DNA of 61,993 nt from NCBI GenBank assembly GCA_015222055.1, contig JADFUR010000110.1, positions 1 to 61,993 of the forward strand, read 5' to 3'. Source of the DNA: Bacteroidota bacterium. GTDB lineage: Bacteria; Bacteroidota; Bacteroidia; Bacteroidales; B39-G9. Shown piece after piece: positions 39,069 to 49,207 of this stretch. The notes beneath the pieces are model-generated. The model did no database searches. It was given only the letters and a program-made list of their open reading frames with translations, and was not told the origin of the DNA. Every line of letters starts with the position of its first letter. Position 1 is the stretch's first letter. The position numbers were made by a program, and so were the translations under genes.

Positions 39069-39767
39069 ATGCTTGAAGGATTTAAATCTAATATTAATAC
39101 TTTTCAAGAGATAAATATCTCTGCCGATAAATGTTTTGATGTTTTAACAGATATTGAGAAACAAGAGTTGTTAAAAAGCAAAATGGAAATAGAATTTAAG
39201 GCGGGGGAGACAATAATAAAAAAAGGTTTTGTTGCAAGCAATATTTTATATATTGAAGAGGGCTTAGTTCGAATAGATATTGAAACAGATAAACAATCAA
39301 CGACTGTTAATATTTTGCCGCCGAAACATTTTATTGGTATTATTTGTTCATTTGCCAGTCTTAATTTTGATTTTTCGGCTGTGGCTCTCGAAAAAACAAC
39401 CATAAGTTTATTTAATATTAAGTTGTTCGAAAAGTTTATTCAGCAAAACGGGAAGTTTGCCTTTAATTTTGTTCGGCATCTGTCATTTTTATCTAAAAAT
39501 ACAATTCATAGAATTGCCAGGCTTTCTCAAAAAAATATTTATGGAGCGGTAGCAATTCTTCTTTGTGATTTTAGCAAAATTTATAATTCCGATTCTTTTA
39601 CTCTGCCGATGAACAGAAAGGAAATGGCAAATATTTTCGGCTATTCAAAAGAAAGTGTTATAAACACCTTGTCGAAACTTAACAAAGACGGTATTTTAAA
39701 TGTTAATGACAAAAAAATTGTAATTTTAGATAAAAAGAAATTAATTCAAATAGGGGAAAGGGGCTGA
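39069..39767 (+). CDS. Crp/Fnr-family transcriptional regulator
   Basis: A 232-residue regulator: a cyclic-nucleotide-binding-like sensor fold (residues about 20-140, FKAGETIIKKGFVASNILYI) followed by a Crp-type helix-turn-helix (MNRKEMANIFGYSKESVINTL). There are no Fnr iron-sulfur cysteines near the N-terminus. It is divergent from osmC and may control the sulfur genes. Its last 225 bp and the following 23 bp occur again, damaged, at 41777-41838 and 46667-46890, so its 3' end marks an island junction. Confidence 0.9.
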   Translation: MLEGFKSNINTFQEINISADKCFDVLTDIEKQELLKSKMEIEFKAGETIIKKGFVASNILYIEEGLVRIDIETDKQSTTVNILPPKHFIGIICSFASLNFDFSAVALEKTTISLFNIKLFEKFIQQNGKFAFNFVRHLSFLSKNTIHRIARLSQKNIYGAVAILLCDFSKIYNSDSFTLPMNRKEMANIFGYSKESVINTLSKLNKDGILNVNDKKIVILDKKKLIQIGERG

Positions 39768-39934
39768 GTTTTTTTTATTTGATATTAAGAGAAGCAGTTT
39801 TTTTAAATGGTATGGAACGATGGCAATATGGAATGAAGCGGATTGCGAGCAATTCACTATCAAACTGAGATTAAGTTGAAACGGATTAAAGCCGCTTCAA
39901 TTAAACACTTCACCGCTTTTTGCTATATTGCGTG

Positions 39935-40867
39935 TTAGCGGTTGTTATTTATAAATTGTCTATCACTTGGGAATATTGATAATAAAACAATTGGATATTT
40001 TCTCCTTGCAAAATATTTACTGTAATCTTCTTTTTTTCCACTTTCTATTAAATCAATATATTTCTCTCGCTTGTTTTCAACTTCACTAAAAATATAATAT
40101 AAACACTCTATATAATCTTCATAAGTATTGTTCAAACTCATGTCAATTACAAAAATATAATTCCCTTTTTCTAAAATATTGTTAATCGAATTTGCAATAT
40201 TTTTTGATTTAATTTTAACTCCATCAATTATCAAACTTTTTTGTGACAATGAAAACACATACAAATCTTTGTTGTTCTCTAAATTTTTCAGTTTTCCATT
40301 TTTTATTCTAAGAAATATATCTTTAGGTTTTGTCTGTCTAGTTATCGGAATAGACTCTTCTGTATATTCACCTTCATTATCATTTTCGATTAAGCAATCA
40401 CTCCATTCTGTAATATTTGGATAGTATAAACCCTTATTTTTAAAAAAATCAATCTTTAAATCTGAAGAAGAATTCAGTCGTAAGAAATATCCATTATTCT
40501 CTTTTCCTTTGAGTTTATAAAAAACTGTAAAAAGATTGAGACCTTGCAATTCATTTCGAATTGAATCCAGTACCAATATTTCTGTGTTTTTGTTTAAATA
40601 AAAGGAAACGTATCCTGTTGGAATATCAATATAGTTAACATTTTTTCTTTTAATCAATGTGCAGATAGAATCCTTAATTGATTTTATTGTTTGCACCCGC
40701 ATGTCCTCAAGATAATAGCATGAATCATTATAAGTTATCCGAAGCAATTCTTTTCTTTCATCAAGATTTTCCTCATGTACATTCTCAATCTCAGGCAAAT
40801 CTTGTCCTGATGCCGTATTATACAAAGAGATAATTAATAGTAATACTAAAATTCTAAAAATTTTCAT
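39935..40867 (-). CDS. Exported protein of unknown function
   Basis: A 310-residue protein with a signal peptide (cleavage after ASGQ, about residue 22). I do not recognise the family. Residues about 205-265 (KSLIIDGVKIKSKNIANSIN onward) loosely recall the periplasmic domain of ExbD-like proteins, but no transmembrane anchor fits that architecture. The stop codon lies inside GTGTTAGCGGTTGTTATT (39932-39949), and an imperfect inverted copy (40898-40912) lies before the start. So the gene is bracketed like a cassette. Repeat B1 is immediately upstream. Confidence 0.75.
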   Translation of the reverse strand: MKIFRILVLLLIISLYNTASGQDLPEIENVHEENLDERKELLRITYNDSCYYLEDMRVQTIKSIKDSICTLIKRKNVNYIDIPTGYVSFYLNKNTEILVLDSIRNELQGLNLFTVFYKLKGKENNGYFLRLNSSSDLKIDFFKNKGLYYPNITEWSDCLIENDNEGEYTEESIPITRQTKPKDIFLRIKNGKLKNLENNKDLYVFSLSQKSLIIDGVKIKSKNIANSINNILEKGNYIFVIDMSLNNTYEDYIECLYYIFSEVENKREKYIDLIESGKKEDYSKYFARRKYPIVLLSIFPSDRQFINNNR

Positions 40868-40897
40868 TTGTTAAACTTTTTCGTTGGTGCTTATTCT

Positions 40898-41100
40898 AAT
40901 AACCGCCAACACTTCAATAACACACCCCAGCATGTCTTATTTTCGTTATATATTTATTAGTTAAACTCAAAGTTATCAAAAAAAAGCAAAAAAAATAAAT
41001 ATTGGGATTGTAATTTTTTTTAATTCGTTTTAAATGCTGGAAAAAAATAGACAATATTTTGGTGCTGGTTGGTGTCGTAGTCAGAGACTACGACAAGCGG
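40898..41100 (-). repeat. Family B element, copy B1
   Basis: About 200 bp. The left end is a hairpin built on AATAACACACC / GCATGTCTTATT. The centre is A/T-rich and carries TAACTTTG on the minus strand (40968-40975), a perfect -7 element without a good -33. The right end is the hairpin TGTCGTAGTC-aga-GACTACGACA (41073-41095). In the minus direction it points into the exported-protein gene 31 bp away. Its right end replaces the 3' part of the RhuM gene. Confidence 0.75.
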
Positions 41101-41517
41101 AGATTTTTTTAATTGCTCGTTCTGTTGAGTTAATAGATTTTTATTTAATGCGTAACCTTTAATTAAGTAGTCTTTCAAAATTTTATTTGCCCAAATCCGA
41201 AATTGAGTACCCCTTTGGGATTTAATTCTGTATCCAATAGATATAATAACATCTAGATTAAAGAATTCAATGTTCCTTTCAACTTCTCGACCACCCTCGT
41301 TTTGAACTGTTGCATATTTTGCAACAGTTGCCTTTCTGGATAATTCCTTTTCTTTGAATACATTGTTTATATGCCTAGATACGACTGACTTATCACGCTC
41401 AAACAAATCTACCATTTGATTTAAACTCAACCAAACAGTATCATTATCCAACTGTACGTTTATTTCTGTTTTTCCGTCCTCTGACTGGTATATTCTAATA
41501 TCCGAGTTTTTTATTAT
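41020..41517 (-). pseudogene. Truncated RhuM-family gene
   Basis: The frame encodes the N-terminal half of a RhuM-type protein (VWLSLNQMVDLFERDKSVVS; FNLDVIISIGYRIKSQRGTQ). Two defects are visible. The upstream in-frame codons that still look like RhuM (IRIYQSEDGKTEI) contain no ATG, GTG or TTG before the stop at 41518-41520. And after about residue 115 the protein runs into repeat B1, giving an unrelated tail (PLVVVSDYDT onward). RhuM proteins are normally over 300 residues. It lies between copies B1 and B2. Confidence 0.75.
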
Positions 41518-41590
41518 TCAATTTTTTTTTAAATATACAAATCTTAATTACGATAATGATTTTGTATGTAGAGCGTTAGTTTTAATGCAT

Positions 41591-41776
41591 GCTAACATTT
41601 CAATAAGACACCCCAGCATGTCTTATTTTCATTATATATTAAATAGTTAAACTCAAAGTTATCAAAAAAAAGCAATAAAAATAAATATTGGAATTGTAAT
41701 TTTTTTTTAAGTAGTGAAAAAAATATAGACAATATTTTGGTACTGGTAGGTGTTGTAGTCAGATACTACGACAAGC
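41591..41776 (-). repeat. Family B element, copy B2
   Basis: It is very similar to B1. The left end is GCTAACATTTCAATAAGACA with its hairpin partner GCATGTCTTATT; the minus-strand TAACTTTG is at 41654-41661; and the right hairpin is a diverged TGTTGTAGTC / GATACTACGACA. It points towards the RhuM remnant, and its right end abuts a crp fragment. The 41518-41911 spacer holds only this, the crp fragment and about 70 bp of unassigned DNA. Confidence 0.75.
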
Positions 41777-41838
41777 GGAGCGGTAGCAATTCTTCTTTGT
41801 GATTTTAGCAAAATTTATAATTCCGATTCTTTTACTCT
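41777..41838 (+). pseudogene. 62-bp internal fragment of the Crp/Fnr gene
   Basis: It is identical over all 62 bp to 39543-39604 inside the intact regulator gene, then diverges. It is joined directly to the right end of repeat B2. It is far too short to function. Confidence 0.85.
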
Positions 41839-41911
41839 TCCAAGCAAACCACTGACTGTCAAATTATTTATAATGCGTGTTAACGCCTGGCATTTTTTTA
41901 TCTTAGTTCAA

Positions 41912-43603: not shown

Positions 43604-43864
43604 TCAATTTACACTGAGCCACTTATGTTTTTTATACATTGTTAGCGTTTCGTGCTTTATCATTGCTGTCTCTCCATGCGTTGGCAAAGCAAGCTCTTTG
43701 GCTGGTTTTGGCCGTGTGTCTGCTGGGGCGACCAGACAATGTGCTTGACGGTGCGTTGGCAGAACACCCGCTGCTGCGATAGATGTTCCAATAGTCCAAA
43801 AAGTTTCGACCAACGAAGTCAGCCCAGTTTTCCAGTTTATTTTTACATTGTTTTTATGTTCCAT
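43604..43864 (-). CDS. Possible small membrane peptide gene, probably chimeric
   Basis: An 86-codon frame starts at 43864 behind AAAGGAGACAA, an unusually good Shine-Dalgarno for this genome. Residues 1-36 (ending SIAAAGV) look like a short peptide with one hydrophobic helix. The rest lies in a patch clearly richer in G+C than the surroundings (about 43670-43800), with the direct repeat TGCGTTGGCA at 43677-43686 and 43752-43761, and does not look like protein. The original 3' end was probably replaced. I do not recognise a family. Confidence 0.3.
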   Translation of the reverse strand: MEHKNNVKINWKTGLTSLVETFWTIGTSIAAAGVLPTHRQAHCLVAPADTRPKPAKELALPTHGETAMIKHETLTMYKKHKWLSVN

Positions 43865-44009
43865 ATTTGTCTCCTTTCTTTGTTTTAATTTTAATAAATC
43901 TATTAAAAATCTAGTTGCAATTAATGTTAATACAAAAAGAACTAAAGGAACATAACTACCGCAGCTTAAGGTGCCTACCCCTAGGGTCGCTAAGGATATT
44001 TTAAATTTC

Positions 44010-44810
44010 TTACTTTTCCCATATTACACTAATTATCGTTTTATATTGTTTTGTTGGGATACAATATTCATAAAAATCTGAATCTTCATCATATTTACGC
44101 AACTCACACCATGTTGACTTACATATTTCTTGAGCTTTTTCTGTACCTGTGTATATAAAATCGTAATCTGCATTTATATATTCTAAAGCAACAGAATCGC
44201 TAGGTGGTGGTATTTTTGTACATTCCTTAATCTTGTATCTCCAACTAGAAGATTTATCCCAATTCCGAACTACTCCATTATGAATATATATCACCATTAA
44301 TGGGTGAATATCTAAATTCATGCAACGAATTAATGTTGATGATATACTAGTTTTAAATCTTTCGGACAAATACTTGACTAAATCAGGTGTAAATGGTTTG
44401 CCTTTAGTTTCTGCATAAAATAATTGTTCTGGCAATAATAATTCAGAAGCAAAGTCATTAGCTTCCCATTCTTGTAATCCTTTTTTTAATTGGTTCTCTG
44501 TACTTTTAAACCAATTAAGTGTATTAGAATTCTCATTATGCACTTCAATTTTATCATGCATTAAAAAATGACCAGCTTCATGGGCTATGGTAAAACGTTT
44601 TTTTGATTCATATGGGATTTCTGAATTGACTTTAATTAAAGTTTTAGATTTACCTCGTACTATCTTTCCATCTGAATTATCAAGCTTTTCTTCAACTAAA
44701 GTCGCACCTAATCCTGAAACAAAAAGCTTCATGGATAAATCAGTTATTTCATCAAATCCAATTTCTATCAATAACTTTTTTGCTCTTATGCTTCCTCTAC
44801 AATTCTTCAT
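44010..44810 (-). CDS. ImmA/IrrE-type zinc metallopeptidase
   Basis: A 266-residue COG2856-type protein. The zinc motif is FTIAHEAGHFLMHD (HExxH near residue 75), and a downstream Glu in QEWEANDFASELLLP is the likely third ligand. Family members cleave repressors or anti-sigma-like regulators (ImmA on ImmR, IrrE on DdrO). Here it is last in an operon with a sigma-like protein and a small helical protein, and overlaps the latter by 14 bp. Cleavage of one partner is plausible but inferred. No HTH domain is fused to it. Confidence 0.85.
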   Translation of the reverse strand: MKNCRGSIRAKKLLIEIGFDEITDLSMKLFVSGLGATLVEEKLDNSDGKIVRGKSKTLIKVNSEIPYESKKRFTIAHEAGHFLMHDKIEVHNENSNTLNWFKSTENQLKKGLQEWEANDFASELLLPEQLFYAETKGKPFTPDLVKYLSERFKTSISSTLIRCMNLDIHPLMVIYIHNGVVRNWDKSSSWRYKIKECTKIPPPSDSVALEYINADYDFIYTGTEKAQEICKSTWCELRKYDEDSDFYEYCIPTKQYKTIISVIWEK

Positions 44811-45207
44811 CGTCCTCTAAATTTTCAAGAATTTCAAGCAGGTTATGGTCTTTGATTATACTTTTAATTTCGTCATGAGATAGTTTATCTAAATTACGAT
44901 GCTGAAAAGCAATCTGATTTGTTGCAACTAAATTTCGTAGATAGCTTATTGGCTTTTCAATGTTTTTATCAATTGCTTCTTGAAAATATCTAACTGCCTT
45001 TTCTAAAAGCATTTCATCTCTCTCTGAATTCATTTGCCCTTTGATTGAGAATGATGTTTTCTTATAGCATTTATCTGCTATTTTATTAATTTCACTCAAA
45101 TCATAACCACTCTCTTCTAAAAAAGAATCAATAGTAGAACTGTCACTATCTTTTATAGAAGAAAGTATGAATTCGTCCATTTTATTTAATAATTCTTTTT
45201 TCATCAT
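44797..45207 (-). CDS. Small helical protein of unknown function (middle gene of the sigma-like/ImmA operon)
   Basis: A 136-residue acidic, almost wholly helical protein without a signal peptide or Cys pairs. I recognise no family. It begins at an ATG that overlaps the sigma-like gene by 4 bp and ends 14 bp inside the metallopeptidase gene, so the three are translationally coupled. From position and size it is a candidate anti-sigma or adaptor and possible peptidase substrate; nothing in its sequence proves this. Confidence 0.75.
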   Translation of the reverse strand: MMKKELLNKMDEFILSSIKDSDSSTIDSFLEESGYDLSEINKIADKCYKKTSFSIKGQMNSERDEMLLEKAVRYFQEAIDKNIEKPISYLRNLVATNQIAFQHRNLDKLSHDEIKSIIKDHNLLEILENLEDDEEL

Positions 45208-45800
45208 TTAATATTTTTAATCATTTCCTTTAATGCAGGTAATCTTCTTACTAATCTCTTTTTAATATTAGTCGCTTCTTGTTCAGTTATTCCATTTTCT
45301 TTTGCAATATCTGACCTTTTCATTTCGTGAACAATATAAGGTTCAAATAAAAGCAATTCTTCATCTGAAGCACCTTTTTCCTCAAGAAATTTCAAAGACA
45401 ATTCAAGTAATTCATCATAATCTCCATTGTCTTCTGCTGATATTTTACAATCTTCAATATTTGTATTGGATAGAGCAGTTTTCTCTAATTCTTTCTTAAT
45501 TGTGTTAGAGATTTGACTATCTAGAGAACTAATAACTTGTTCTGCAAAATCTGGAAACTCTGATTTATTCCAGTTTCTACCACCGTCATTTTTGACAAAT
45601 GATAACATTAGCTCACTAATCATATCTTCAACCATTATCCCCCGGAATCCACGATTTAAATCGTATTTGATATTAAATTTCGTATTTATTCTAATAATCG
45701 CATACTTAATCAATCGCAAATTAAACTTAGGAGTAAACACTTCCTGAACTGCACCTTGCAATTCTGTGTTTGTAGCTAATTTCTTTTTTGTAACCTCCAT
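45204..45800 (-). CDS. Sigma-70-like regulator
   Basis: A 198-residue protein laid out like a small sigma factor. The helical region around residues 50-75 (MVEDMISELMLSFVKNDG) recalls region 2. An acidic linker follows, then a C-terminal helix-turn-helix like region 4 (MKRSDIAKENGITEQEATNI, then KKRLVRRLP). It is more divergent than standard ECF factors, so 'sigma-like' is as far as I go. It is first of three overlapping genes. The upstream divergent region carries two palindromes (45832-45848, 45872-45890). Confidence 0.65.
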   Translation of the reverse strand: MEVTKKKLATNTELQGAVQEVFTPKFNLRLIKYAIIRINTKFNIKYDLNRGFRGIMVEDMISELMLSFVKNDGGRNWNKSEFPDFAEQVISSLDSQISNTIKKELEKTALSNTNIEDCKISAEDNGDYDELLELSLKFLEEKGASDEELLLFEPYIVHEMKRSDIAKENGITEQEATNIKKRLVRRLPALKEMIKNIK

Positions 45801-45831
45801 CTATTTATTAATGCTAGTTTTTTTATTTTAT

Positions 45832-45848
45832 TTTCCATGTCATGGAAA
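45832..45848. promoter_or_regulatory. Palindromic operator candidate upstream of the sigma-like operon
   Basis: TTTCCATG-T-CATGGAAA is a perfect 8+1+8 inverted repeat, 32 bp before the sigma-like start codon, in the 147-bp region between the divergent transcription units. Confidence 0.45.
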
Positions 45849-45871
45849 TTTTCTGGTTTTATTCAGCATAA

Positions 45872-45890
45872 CCTAATGTAAACATTTAGG
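45872..45890. promoter_or_regulatory. Second palindrome in the divergent region
   Basis: CCTAATGT-aa-ACATTTAGG is an inverted repeat with one bulged base. It lies 24 bp from the first palindrome and 58 bp before the first micro-gene start. Confidence 0.35.
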
Positions 45891-45947
45891 ATAAGCTTCC
45901 AATCCTTTAAGCTGGGAGCATAGTTTTAATTGATAAATACTTATAAC

Positions 45948-46079
45948 ATGAGTAAAACGTCGACAAGAGTAAGAGATGCCCGTTCTGGACAATTTGTTCC
46001 ATCTCGGGAAGCTACAAGACGACCTGCTACTACTGTCACTGAGAAAGTGAAAGTTGGTCCTACAAAGAAACGTAGCTAG
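45948..46079 (+). CDS. 43-residue basic protein (micro-gene 1)
   Basis: The ATG at 45948 opens a 43-codon frame: MSKTSTRVRDARSGQFVPSR, then EATRRPATTV and TEKVKVGPTKKRS. The composition (Arg/Lys/Thr/Ser, no hydrophobic core) and the RVRDxxSGxFV and RRPATTVTE phrases match a type of short conserved protein I have seen annotated only as hypothetical in Gram-negative accessory DNA. It is divergent from the sigma-like operon and 60 bp before micro-gene 2. Confidence 0.6.
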   Translation: MSKTSTRVRDARSGQFVPSREATRRPATTVTEKVKVGPTKKRS

Positions 46080-46139
46080 TAATGTTTTTATATCTAGTTT
46101 AGATATTGAACGAGTTTTTAATTTTTTAAATTTTAATTT

Positions 46140-46280
46140 ATGTACACTACTGGAGAAAAACCTGGTAAAGGTCGCTACAAATGCGTGAAATGTGGAGAAA
46201 TAATCACACTTGATGATAATTCTGATACACTTCCACCATGTCCAAGCTGTCATGGTACCAAATGGACAAAAGTTGGTTAA
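46140..46280 (+). CDS. 46-residue zinc-ribbon protein (micro-gene 2)
   Basis: The ATG at 46140 opens a 46-codon frame starting MYTTGEKPGKGRYKCVKCGE. The CVKC and CPSC pairs, 17 residues apart, form a rubredoxin-like zinc ribbon (TLPPCPSCHGTKW at the end). It is probably co-transcribed with micro-gene 1 and ends at a clear terminator (46284-46320). The intact frame and cysteine pairs argue that it is real despite its size. Confidence 0.7.
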   Translation: MYTTGEKPGKGRYKCVKCGEIITLDDNSDTLPPCPSCHGTKWTKVG

Positions 46281-46283
46281 CTG

Positions 46284-46320
46284 AAAGGACTGTTTCTTAA
46301 TTGGGGCAGTCCTTTTGTTT
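46284..46320 (+). terminator. Terminator of the two micro-genes
   Basis: The stem AAAGGACTG / CAGTCCTTT is followed by TGTTTTT, four bases after the zinc-ribbon stop codon. This supports the two small frames as a real transcript. Confidence 0.8.
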
Positions 46321-46468
46321 TTCGCACCGCGCGAAGGCAAAAAAATAGCTCTTTTGCAAACTGAAGTATCAGCCTGAGTGTTGGGGTTTGCAAATGTGCT
46401 ATTTGTGCGTTGGGTTTTCATCTCAGTTTTATAATCAGTTTATTAGTTGGATTGTTTTTTTTTGCATT

Positions 46469-46665
46469 ACCCCCAACACTTTAATAAGCCACACTAGTGT
46501 GTCTTATTTTCGTTATATATTTAATAGTTAAACTCAAAGTTATCAAAAAAAAGCAATAAAAATAAATATTGGGATTGTAATTTTTTTAAAATCGTTTTAA
46601 GTGCTGAAAAAAAATAGACAATATTTTGGTACTGGTAGGTGCCGTAGTCAGATACTACGACAAGC
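46469..46665 (-). repeat. Family B element, copy B3
   Basis: The left end is CCAACACTTTAATAAGCCAC with the hairpin partner GTGTGTCTTATT. The minus-strand TAACTTTG is at 46535-46542, and the right hairpin is GCCGTAGTC / GATACTACGAC. The right end joins a crp 3' fragment, as in B2. On the left is about 145 bp of unassigned DNA after the micro-gene terminator; no gene lies in 46281-46874. Confidence 0.75.
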
Positions 46666-46666
46666 A

Positions 46667-46890
46667 GAGCGGTAGCAATTTTTCTTTGTGATTTCAGCAA
46701 AATTTATAATTCCGATTCATTTACTCTGCCAATGAACAGAAAGGAAATGGCAAATATTTTCGGCTATTCAAAAAAAAGTGTGATAAACACCTTGTCGAAA
46801 CTTAACAAAGACGGTATTTTAAATGTTAATGACAAAAAAATTAATTCAAATAGGGGAAAGAGGCTGAGTTTTTTTTATTTGATATTAAGA
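46667..46890 (+). pseudogene. Displaced 3' end of the Crp/Fnr gene
   Basis: It matches 39544-39790 (the 3' third of the intact gene, its stop and the next 23 bp), with about seven substitutions and a 23-bp deletion near the end. It has no promoter or start and cannot make a regulator. Its left edge is fused to B3. Its right edge (TTTTATTTGATATTAAGA) runs into the restriction gene, whose stop codon lies inside this repeat. Confidence 0.85.
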
Positions 46891-47840
46891 AATATGTGAT
46901 TTGTAAATAGCGTATGTGGTGCACTTACAAGATTAATATCAAATTTTAGCGATGGTTCTACTCTTGAACTTGCATTGTGAATTCTAAACGAAATTTGCCA
47001 ACCTTCGTTTAATGAAACCAAAAGAGTTGTTGTCGAATTCTCTTGGTAAACAATTTCAATTAATCGGGAAGGCAATTTTAATTTTGGAATCCTTGCTTTT
47101 GGTTTAACTTTTTTAAAGGGTTGATTTAATGAACCGTGTAGATTATATGCTTGAATTTCAACTGTCTTATTCCCTTTGATTACTTTGTAAAAGTCTTTGT
47201 TGCCAATAAGATATTGCACAAGATTTTTTGCAACAATATTTGAATTTTCTTTATCAAGACGCAAAAGCTCTTTTTTGAATGCATTTAGGATTGGAATATA
47301 AATAACTTCGTGCATATTTTCAATAGAAGTCCATTTTGTTGATTTGTTTTTGGCTTTTAAATCTGCTAACATCTCAAAAATCGGGTTAATCTCTTGATAA
47401 TACTCTTTGGAACAAGGAAAACCTAACCATTTTTTTCCAAAATCAATACTCTGTGATAATCTTGAATGCTTAACTGCTCTATGATTATTTTTAGCTGAAA
47501 TTCCAATTTCCCATTTTTGTGAAGACCTTATCATCAAAACATCTCTAACATCTCCTGTTTGTCCCGCTTGGTCACTAACCAGTTCTAATACAAGAGTATC
47601 GTTCTCATTTATTCCGTTTGACAATCGAGGTTCAATATCAATAAGAAAATTGATTGACGCACTTGCAGTAATTCTAAATGTATCTTGCTCTTTGTCTTCA
47701 AAACCATCAAAAAATTCTTTTGCAGTTTTATACGGCTTATTTTCGGTTACTGAAACATTAGTGATTGTTTTTAACCTTTCTAATAATTCTAGAAGTAAAG
47801 CATATTCAAATGCTTTTCCATTAATTGTTTGTGTTGCCAT
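46875..47840 (-). CDS. HaeIII-family type II restriction endonuclease
   Basis: A 321-residue protein beginning MATQTINGKAFEYALLLEL. It contains the family phrases QAGQTGDVRDVLMIRSSQ and KWEIGISAKNNHRAVKHSRL, which I recognise from R.HaeIII. With the adjacent M.HaeIII-like methylase it should cut GGCC. It lies 3 bp after the methylase stop. Its last five codons and stop lie in the 22-bp direct repeat shared with the crp 3' flank and with 49344-49365. Confidence 0.88.
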   Translation of the reverse strand: MATQTINGKAFEYALLLELLERLKTITNVSVTENKPYKTAKEFFDGFEDKEQDTFRITASASINFLIDIEPRLSNGINENDTLVLELVSDQAGQTGDVRDVLMIRSSQKWEIGISAKNNHRAVKHSRLSQSIDFGKKWLGFPCSKEYYQEINPIFEMLADLKAKNKSTKWTSIENMHEVIYIPILNAFKKELLRLDKENSNIVAKNLVQYLIGNKDFYKVIKGNKTVEIQAYNLHGSLNQPFKKVKPKARIPKLKLPSRLIEIVYQENSTTTLLVSLNEGWQISFRIHNASSRVEPSLKFDINLVSAPHTLFTNHIFLNIK

Positions 47841-47843
47841 AAT

Positions 47844-48893
47844 TTATGATGCAATAGATTCTAATTTCAAAGTGTTTCTCGTTGTTTTCTTAAATTTGTA
47901 TTCAGCGTGCTTGATTTGAGATTTAATGCTTTCTGCTAAATATTTTGCTAAGTTGACAGGAACAGCATTTCCAATCATCTTATATCCTGCTGCAATTTTT
48001 TTGTAATAAAAAATAAAATCATCAGGGAATGTTTGAATCCTTGCACATTCTCTTACGCTTAATCTGCGGTATAAATTTTCTTTTCCAGGGACAAATATGC
48101 GTTTATCTTGTTCTATAAATTTCATTTTAGGAGCTTGCGGATGAATAGGTGCGTGCCGTCCACCAGCTTGTATAGTAAATGATTGTTCATCCCACGTTCT
48201 TACTCGATTTCTTGACATAAATATTGTCGAGAAACCACCAATCATATATTCATGATTAGGGATAATGCAATTTTTTCCATTTGTATTATTATATTCCAAA
48301 GCAGGTAAAACGTCTTCTTTTAAGTCTGATATTGAGGATTCAAGACTTATTTTTGAAAAAGTTTCTGTTGGAAATTTATATTTAAAATTAAGGTCTTTTC
48401 TAATCCCGATGAAAAAGATTCTCTTTCTGTCTTGTGGAACATTATAATCTGATGCATTTAACATTTGAAATGAAAGTTCATATCCAATTCCTGCATTTCT
48501 AAATAGTTCTTTTATTCCTTCAAGAGCTTCTGAATGCTTTGATATTAGCATTCCGCTCACATTCTCAGCTAAGAAAAATTTAGGCTGTTTTGCCTCTAAT
48601 ATTCTAATGAAATCATAAAATAATTGACCTCTTTTATCTTTTATTCCTCTTGCAGAACCTGCTTCACTCCAACTTTGGCAAGGTGGTCCGCCAATTATTC
48701 CATCACAATCAGGAACGTCATCAGCAGGAATATCTACAATACTTCTTTTGTCAAGTGTCGTTTTGGGGTGATTCTTTTCATAAGTTTCCCAAATTTCTTT
48801 GTCATATTCATTTGCCCATACAACATTGAAACCTGCTTTCTGGAACCCTAAATCTAAACCTCCAGCTCCTGCAAAAAATGATACTACCTTCAT
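47844..48893 (-). CDS. DNA (cytosine-5) methyltransferase, M.HaeIII-like
   Basis: A 349-residue C5 methyltransferase: motif [17 protein letters not shown], catalytic motif [14 protein letters not shown], motif VI ENVSG, motif [14 protein letters not shown], and [10 protein letters not shown] at the end. YPNHEY-like and [20 protein letters not shown] segments in the target-recognition region closely resemble M.HaeIII, so GGCC is the likely site. It overlaps the upstream regulator gene by 4 bp; regulator, methylase and endonuclease form one operon. Confidence 0.93.
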
Positions 48894-49207
48894 AACGCTT
48901 TTTTTTTATTCAACACTCTTCTATATTCCGCTTTTTCTTCTGCAACTTTTAAAAGTTGTTTACTACAATTCATCTCATAAATCTGTTTTCCAATTTGGTC
49001 TGTCACATATTCATCTTGTAGCGTTTTAAGATTCAACTTGAGACTTTTAGCTAATTTTGGCAGTCGTTTTTCATCAAAGTCACGTTTTCCATTCTCAATT
49101 TTACTTAAATTTGCAGAATCTAAATCAAGTTTAGCTGCTAACTGAGTTAAGGTCATTCCATTCTCAGACCTAAGTTTTTTAATGTATTCTCCAAATGTAG
49201 TTTTCAT
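48890..49207 (-). CDS. XRE-family regulator of the restriction-modification operon
   Basis: A 105-residue protein starting at ATG 49207 ([20 protein letters not shown]). The lambda-repressor-type HTH is [20 protein letters not shown]; a short helical tail follows. It precedes the methylase with a 4-bp overlap. A palindrome over its own -7 element (49213-49229) suggests autoregulation like that of C proteins, which delay the nuclease until the host is methylated. It is longer than most C proteins, so that role is inferred. Confidence 0.85.

Follow-up and report, generated by a model that had tools for sequence, protein, structure and literature searches.

Organization of the cassette

A predicted sigma factor, a small helical protein and a metallopeptidase are encoded in one operon of a Bacteroidota bacterium (contig JADFUR010000110.1), which diverges from two micro-genes. 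What does this operon control, and by which mechanism? The locus was analyzed within the whole stretch of 61,993 nucleotides, hereafter called the window. A sequence-only reading had described three overlapping genes, two divergent micro-genes, a promoter region common to both operons and a strong terminator closing the micro-genes, and all of these were found. The features are listed below; L096 is a locus in a Bacteroidales MAG, and L008 is a trio locus of Segatella copri.

43639..46429: extent of the cassette common to the window and L096, 89-92% identity
44010..44810, (-) strand: CapP-like M78 metallopeptidase gene, 266 aa, with a HEAGH motif
44797..45207, (-) strand: gene for the middle helical protein, 136 aa, a proposed anti-sigma and putative CapP substrate
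45204..45800, (-) strand: predicted sigma factor gene, 198 aa, sigma2 and sigma4 domains
45948..46079, (+) strand: 43-aa basic microprotein gene (cargo), kept in L096 and L008
46140..46280, (+) strand: 46-aa zinc ribbon gene (cargo), DUF1451 C-terminal type
46282..46317, (+) strand: intrinsic terminator of the micro-gene operon, 15 pairs and a T tract

The sigma and middle genes overlap by 4 bp, and the middle and CapP genes by 14 bp. The divergent gap between the sigma gene and the 43-aa gene is 147 bp (45801-45947). If a TTG start is used instead, the 43-aa gene encodes 49 aa. The terminator is real, with z=-3.9.

The gene trio is the conserved unit

About 30 further genomes or plasmids, mostly of Bacteroidota, carry the order sigma-middle-CapP. 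The genes mostly overlap or abut, and in nearly all cases a cargo operon diverges from the trio. The trio occurs on Bacteroidota chromosomes and also on plasmids of Pontibacter, Spirosoma, Segatella and Chryseobacterium, and weaker cases were seen in one Ignavibacteria, one Myxococcota and one Rhodocyclales genome. A match to the middle protein was present in 15 of 395 Bacteroidota genomes. Twelve of the 15 matches were inspected and every one adjoins genes for a sigma factor and for CapP, counting L208, where the script did not call the ORF of the middle protein. A plasmid search with the sigma protein found none; the plasmid trios came via the peptidase and micro-gene queries. The sequence-only reading had taken a lack of co-occurrence elsewhere as a point against its proposal, and had looked to the five-gene neighborhood. 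The trio genes co-occur widely, but the five genes do not form the unit, since the cargo varies.

Across trios, the cargo includes CBASS cyclases, in one case accompanied by a patatin effector, as well as Pycsar and E1-E2 ubiquitin-like operons. Thus, in these relatives the trio adjoins an immune operon, as CapH+CapP does, a position that known controllers responding to DNA damage also take (PMC13373217). Other trios face DUF2188 or 57-aa microproteins. Microproteins of these two families were seen beside both HTH+M78 pairs and sigma trios (L161, L144, L132, L117, L141, L130 and L151; L112, L101, L210 and many CapH-like loci). Because they adjoin HTH+M78 pairs too, the same kind of cargo is apparently served by different controllers. 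TnsA/TnsB-like transposition genes, identified by a family match in L107 (1196-3795) and by likeness in L198 (2633-5334), face the trio in these loci, which suggests damage-controlled transposition. In the window, only the micro-genes face the trio, and a HaeIII system lies beyond the cassette. No CBASS-type effector was found in the window, and the divergent operon, which consists of the 43-mer and the zinc ribbon, holds no cyclase gene of the CBASS or Pycsar kind.

Two variations in trio surroundings were observed. On a Pontibacter plasmid (L007, 6943-8663), umuD and a Y-family polymerase gene lie directly 3' of the trio. In Seramator thermalis (L102, 3276-5774), about 700 bp separate the middle gene from the CapP gene, and a repeat insertion between them is likely because the intervening ORF resembles another one in the same locus.

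Identity of the three proteins

The peptidase matched PADLOC capP over nearly its full length (E=1.2e-54) and Pfam M78 with E=1.3e-15. Among the solved structures in the PDB, CapP (7T5T) was its sole sequence match (1.6e-6). These results identify a CapP-type M78 peptidase, as in CapH+CapP. The HEAGH metallopeptidase expected from the sequence was therefore confirmed, but its assignment to a generic ImmA/IrrE type was not, since it is CapP-like. No close CapP of this type was detected in the viral contigs searched, and a phage origin is thus unsupported.

The product of the first gene matched TIGR02937, the sigma-70/ECF superfamily model, with an E-value of 6e-7 that is under the curated cut-off of the model; 8 of its 14 homologues matched the same model. 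In the AF2 model (pLDDT 78.5), helices are arranged in two domains. By structural re-alignment, all 50 of the 50 matches listed were sigma factors. The best of them, 3mzy, covered both domains (107 residues, 4.4 A) with a Z of 8.9, to be read with the caveat that helical folds can reach middling Z by chance, and the sigma4 domain of CnrH fitted the model at 2.0 A over 64 residues. The Foldseek E-values were poor (best 0.02), and the PDB sequence search with the sigma alignment gave weak matches only. Taken as fold evidence and not as proof, the AF2 model and the structural alignment point to a two-domain factor with the sigma2 and sigma4 domains of an ECF-like protein, in agreement with the sigma-70-like protein proposed from the sequence.

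The middle protein belongs to a helical family that is conserved across trios. The earlier description as an unrecognised helical protein was right as to the helices, but the protein is not wholly unrecognised: it weakly matched PADLOC capH (E=4.6e-4), as did 10 of 14 homologues. When its own genome was searched with the capH profile, mostly generic HTH genes were obtained. In the hhalign comparison with CapH-like proteins, the sole similarity was in the C-terminal tail (AFQHRNLDKLSHDEIKSI against AFFRKFNKLDPDDKKKI; 18 columns, single-pair E=0.009, probability 4.7%). Family profiles found no HTH family in the middle protein, and the N-terminal HTH that CapH has upstream of CapP is thus not seen here. 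No structural relative and no known anti-sigma fold were found when the model was searched with Foldseek, which is not proof of a new fold, and the PDB sequence search with the middle-protein alignment gave weak matches only. As in ECF-like systems with a co-encoded anti-sigma, a partner gene is co-encoded with the sigma gene; its binding to the sigma factor is putative and comes without a fold match.

A mirrored promoter-like pair between the two operons

In the 147-bp gap, two promoter-like sites face away from a common center.

45810..45837, (-) strand: predicted promoter toward the sigma operon, TGGAAA-N15-TAGCATT, rank 1 of 123,934 window positions
45832..45848: perfect 17-bp palindrome TTTCCATGTCATGGAAA, two facing -35 elements, preserved in L096, with many other loci sharing its form
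45843..45870, (+) strand: predicted promoter toward the micro-genes, TGGAAA-N15-CAGCATA, rank 4 of 123,934 window positions

Both ranks were obtained with matrices trained on other clusters only. The palindrome is composed of TTTCCATG-T-CATGGAAA, and AGCAT(A/T) arms are equidistant on both sides of it. When the gaps were compared side by side, the architecture was a central palindrome with 16 bp each way to an AGCAT-type element, as counted between the 7-mers ATGGAAA and AGCATAA. Distant loci, too, have mirrored sites of this kind (TGGNAA, a fixed spacer and AGCAT), again with -35 elements that overlap.

Since a simple score for the whole dyad was too coarse, a gapped motif search was used instead. 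The blind search in 24 loci yielded TGGNAAA-N13-T(C)AGCAT, for which the likelihood gain was 112, as compared with 40-45 in shuffled sets. Since the 7-mer blocks can shift within a single conserved stretch, spacings from 11 to 16 score alike, and the alignment rather than the block boundary is the result. In 8 of the 24 loci, both strands placed among the top four, as compared with none of 1200 shuffled gaps and none of 76 control loci with HTH+M78 pairs; this leave-out test is not fully blind, because the motif start positions came from the search with all loci. The overlapping geometry was observed in 54% of the trio loci and in 3% of the comparison. One site alone is not diagnostic, because 7 of the 76 HTH+M78 controls reached the top four on a single strand. 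With the same method, the mirrored motif was not recovered in L013, L102, L107, L198 and L207; L207 possesses its own 26-bp palindrome. Thus, the trio and its promoter motif are beyond chance, given the recurrence in about 30 genomes and plasmids and a motif that did better than both the shuffled and the real controls.

Within the whole host genome, the exact motif had a single match, at the site facing the micro-genes, which suggests that the regulon would be local. An ECF-like factor is expected to have its own type of -35/-10 promoter, constant in spacing, ahead of both its own gene and its targets, and the sequence evidence from this gap is consistent with this.

As a point against the sigma reading, the mirrored motif would also suit the large dyad operator of a dimeric or tetrameric repressor. 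The sigma-like HTH protein, dimerised by the middle protein, would then form a split repressor that sits on the palindrome and shuts off both operons until CapP cleavage derepresses them. Such a repressor would explain a perfect palindrome at the promoter center, but the feature that is conserved is a mirrored promoter-like pair, and its -35/-10 spacing is constant across very divergent loci. The C-terminal tail of the middle protein does resemble that of CapH, and all known controllers of this class that PMC13373217 names are repressor systems; however, the first protein has both predicted sigma domains, and repression does not need sigma2. Moreover, no sigma-70-type promoter match was detected between the operons, in a scan that does not cover Bacteroidota promoters. 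Because both sigma domains and mirrored promoter-like sites with fixed spacing are present, we regard repression by a split repressor as unlikely, though it is the rival of most weight, and favor activation by a sigma factor.

Micro-genes and the sister locus

The micro-genes are conserved at the protein level in L096. The 43-mer is 97.7% identical there and 67% identical in the Segatella copri locus, where the homologue lies 3' of a trio and a 322-aa gene. The zinc ribbon (Pfam DUF1451, E=2e-9) is 87% identical in L096. The first cargo gene of L096, which encodes an HNH protein, has no counterpart in the window.

45887..45888, (+) strand: junction lacking 258 bp of L096 (3665-3922 of that locus, encoding an 82-aa HNH protein)

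The window junction sits at a short common TTTA, so deletion is the simpler reading; judging from the two sequences, the HNH stretch was probably lost from the window, and insertion in L096 is the alternative.

The lack of these 258 bp relative to L096 might indicate that the cassette is a degenerate relic, which after the loss of the HNH gene controls functionless leftover micro-genes. We consider this very doubtful, since the five remaining genes are open and both promoter sites are intact. Synonymous changes predominate in the comparison with L096 (5 against 2 non-synonymous in the 43-mer; 10 against 7 in the zinc ribbon), and in Segatella copri, too, the 43-aa gene follows a trio and one other gene.

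The 43-aa gene was absent from the phages searched, and no trio was annotated near its distant copies in Paracoccus and Alteromonas. Next to the cassette, genes for a HaeIII-type restriction enzyme, a cytosine methylase and a small HTH protein are located at 46875-49204. Direct repeats of 65-223 bp, with identities of up to 98%, are scattered in 2-3 copies at 39543-41841 and 46447-46908; the last of them begins just past the cassette end at 46429.

Comparison with known controllers

The CapH+CapP immune-operon controllers are attributed to Lau et al. 2022, as cited in PMC13373217. In these systems, ssDNA activates CapP, which cleaves CapH so that the adjacent operon is derepressed (PMC13373217, PMC10904395). 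The trio shares with them the CapP-type M78 peptidase, the position beside CBASS, Pycsar and ubiquitin-like operons, a weak resemblance between the middle-protein and CapH tails, and the 57-aa and DUF2188 families as neighbors. Unlike CapH+CapP, it is devoid of an HTH repressor and has a predicted sigma factor, a separate helical protein and a mirrored sigma-type promoter.

In CalpL-CalpT-CalpS of type III CRISPR, an ECF sigma factor is held by an anti-sigma, which a protease cuts (PMC11417357). The protease/anti-sigma/ECF sigma logic and the antiviral setting are similar to those proposed for the trio. However, CalpL is a Lon-SAVED protease triggered by cA4, whereas the protease of the trio is an M78/CapP peptidase that is probably triggered by ssDNA. 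No CRISPR link of the cassette was seen.

The sequence-only reading had drawn its analogy with ImmA-ImmR and IrrE-DdrO. The analogy holds in that a COG2856/M78 peptidase is paired with a transcription regulator, as in IrrE/PprI-DdrO. In those systems, however, the regulator is an XRE-type repressor, no HTH_3-type domain was found in the partner genes of the trio, and the trio peptidase best matches CapP; the closest comparison, CapH+CapP and other immune-operon controllers, had been missed. CapW/BrxR and CapK+CapS (PMC13373217) also control adjacent immune operons, and CapK+CapS, like the cassette, is found near restriction systems and occurs beside YegP-like small genes, but their proteins are unrelated to those of the trio. 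CapW, CapH+CapP and CapK+CapS are repressor systems (PMC13373217).

The trio has parts of both CapH+CapP and CalpL/T/S. Since the defining HTH-repressor and Lon-SAVED features are missing, the sigma-based controller is set apart from both and is filed as a variant of the controller class, a member of neither. No account of a sigma factor acting with CapP or IrrE in immunity was found in the literature searched, to which the founding CapH+CapP paper (Lau et al. 2022) did not belong.

Proposed mechanism

We consider it likely that the cassette is a controller of immune or stress genes that works by protease-triggered sigma release. The middle helical protein, as an anti-sigma, would hold the sigma factor inactive. 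Upon DNA damage or phage infection, ssDNA would activate the CapP-like peptidase, which would cut the middle protein, probably in the CapH-like tail. The freed sigma factor would join RNA polymerase and fire the mirrored promoter with its overlapping -35 elements, thereby boosting its own operon and turning on the divergent cargo genes. Here, these would be the genes for the basic 43-mer and the zinc ribbon, the HNH nuclease gene having apparently been lost. A release of the sigma-like factor by peptidase cleavage of the helical protein had already been suggested from the sequence, and it is the best explanation, with strong independent support from the recurrence of the trio, the sigma-factor fold, the match of the peptidase to CapP and the mirrored promoter. 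What changes is that the conserved unit is the trio, with the cargo here apparently minus HNH.

With somewhat less confidence, slightly above even, we suggest that such trios form a further family of DNA-damage immune-operon controllers, in which a sigma factor released by CapP acts on a mirrored, overlapping bidirectional promoter, and that the microproteins (the 43-mer, zinc ribbon, HNH, 57-mer and DUF2188 proteins) would be unrecognised damage-induced effectors. Controllers set when lethal immune systems are expressed. If the proposal is true, this control would be active switching, amplified by the action of the sigma factor on its own operon, and would unite two separate principles: ssDNA sensing by CapP, and the cutting of an anti-sigma as in CalpL/T/S. 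By its sequence, the mirrored promoter may help to locate immune operons under such control, among them unrecognised ones, and it makes the micro-genes testable as effectors.

A toxin-antitoxin-like or autonomous stress unit, with CapP or the micro-genes as toxin and the sigma and middle proteins as antitoxins, is hardly credible: ImmA-type proteins are found in toxin-antitoxin systems and the PDB labels 7T5T as 'CapP toxin', but the trio is constant while the cargo varies, and the conserved promoter architecture points to regulation.

At the sigma end of the gap (45800-45815), the -10-like element stops about 9 nt short of the sigma start codon. Thus, the sigma message may be leaderless.
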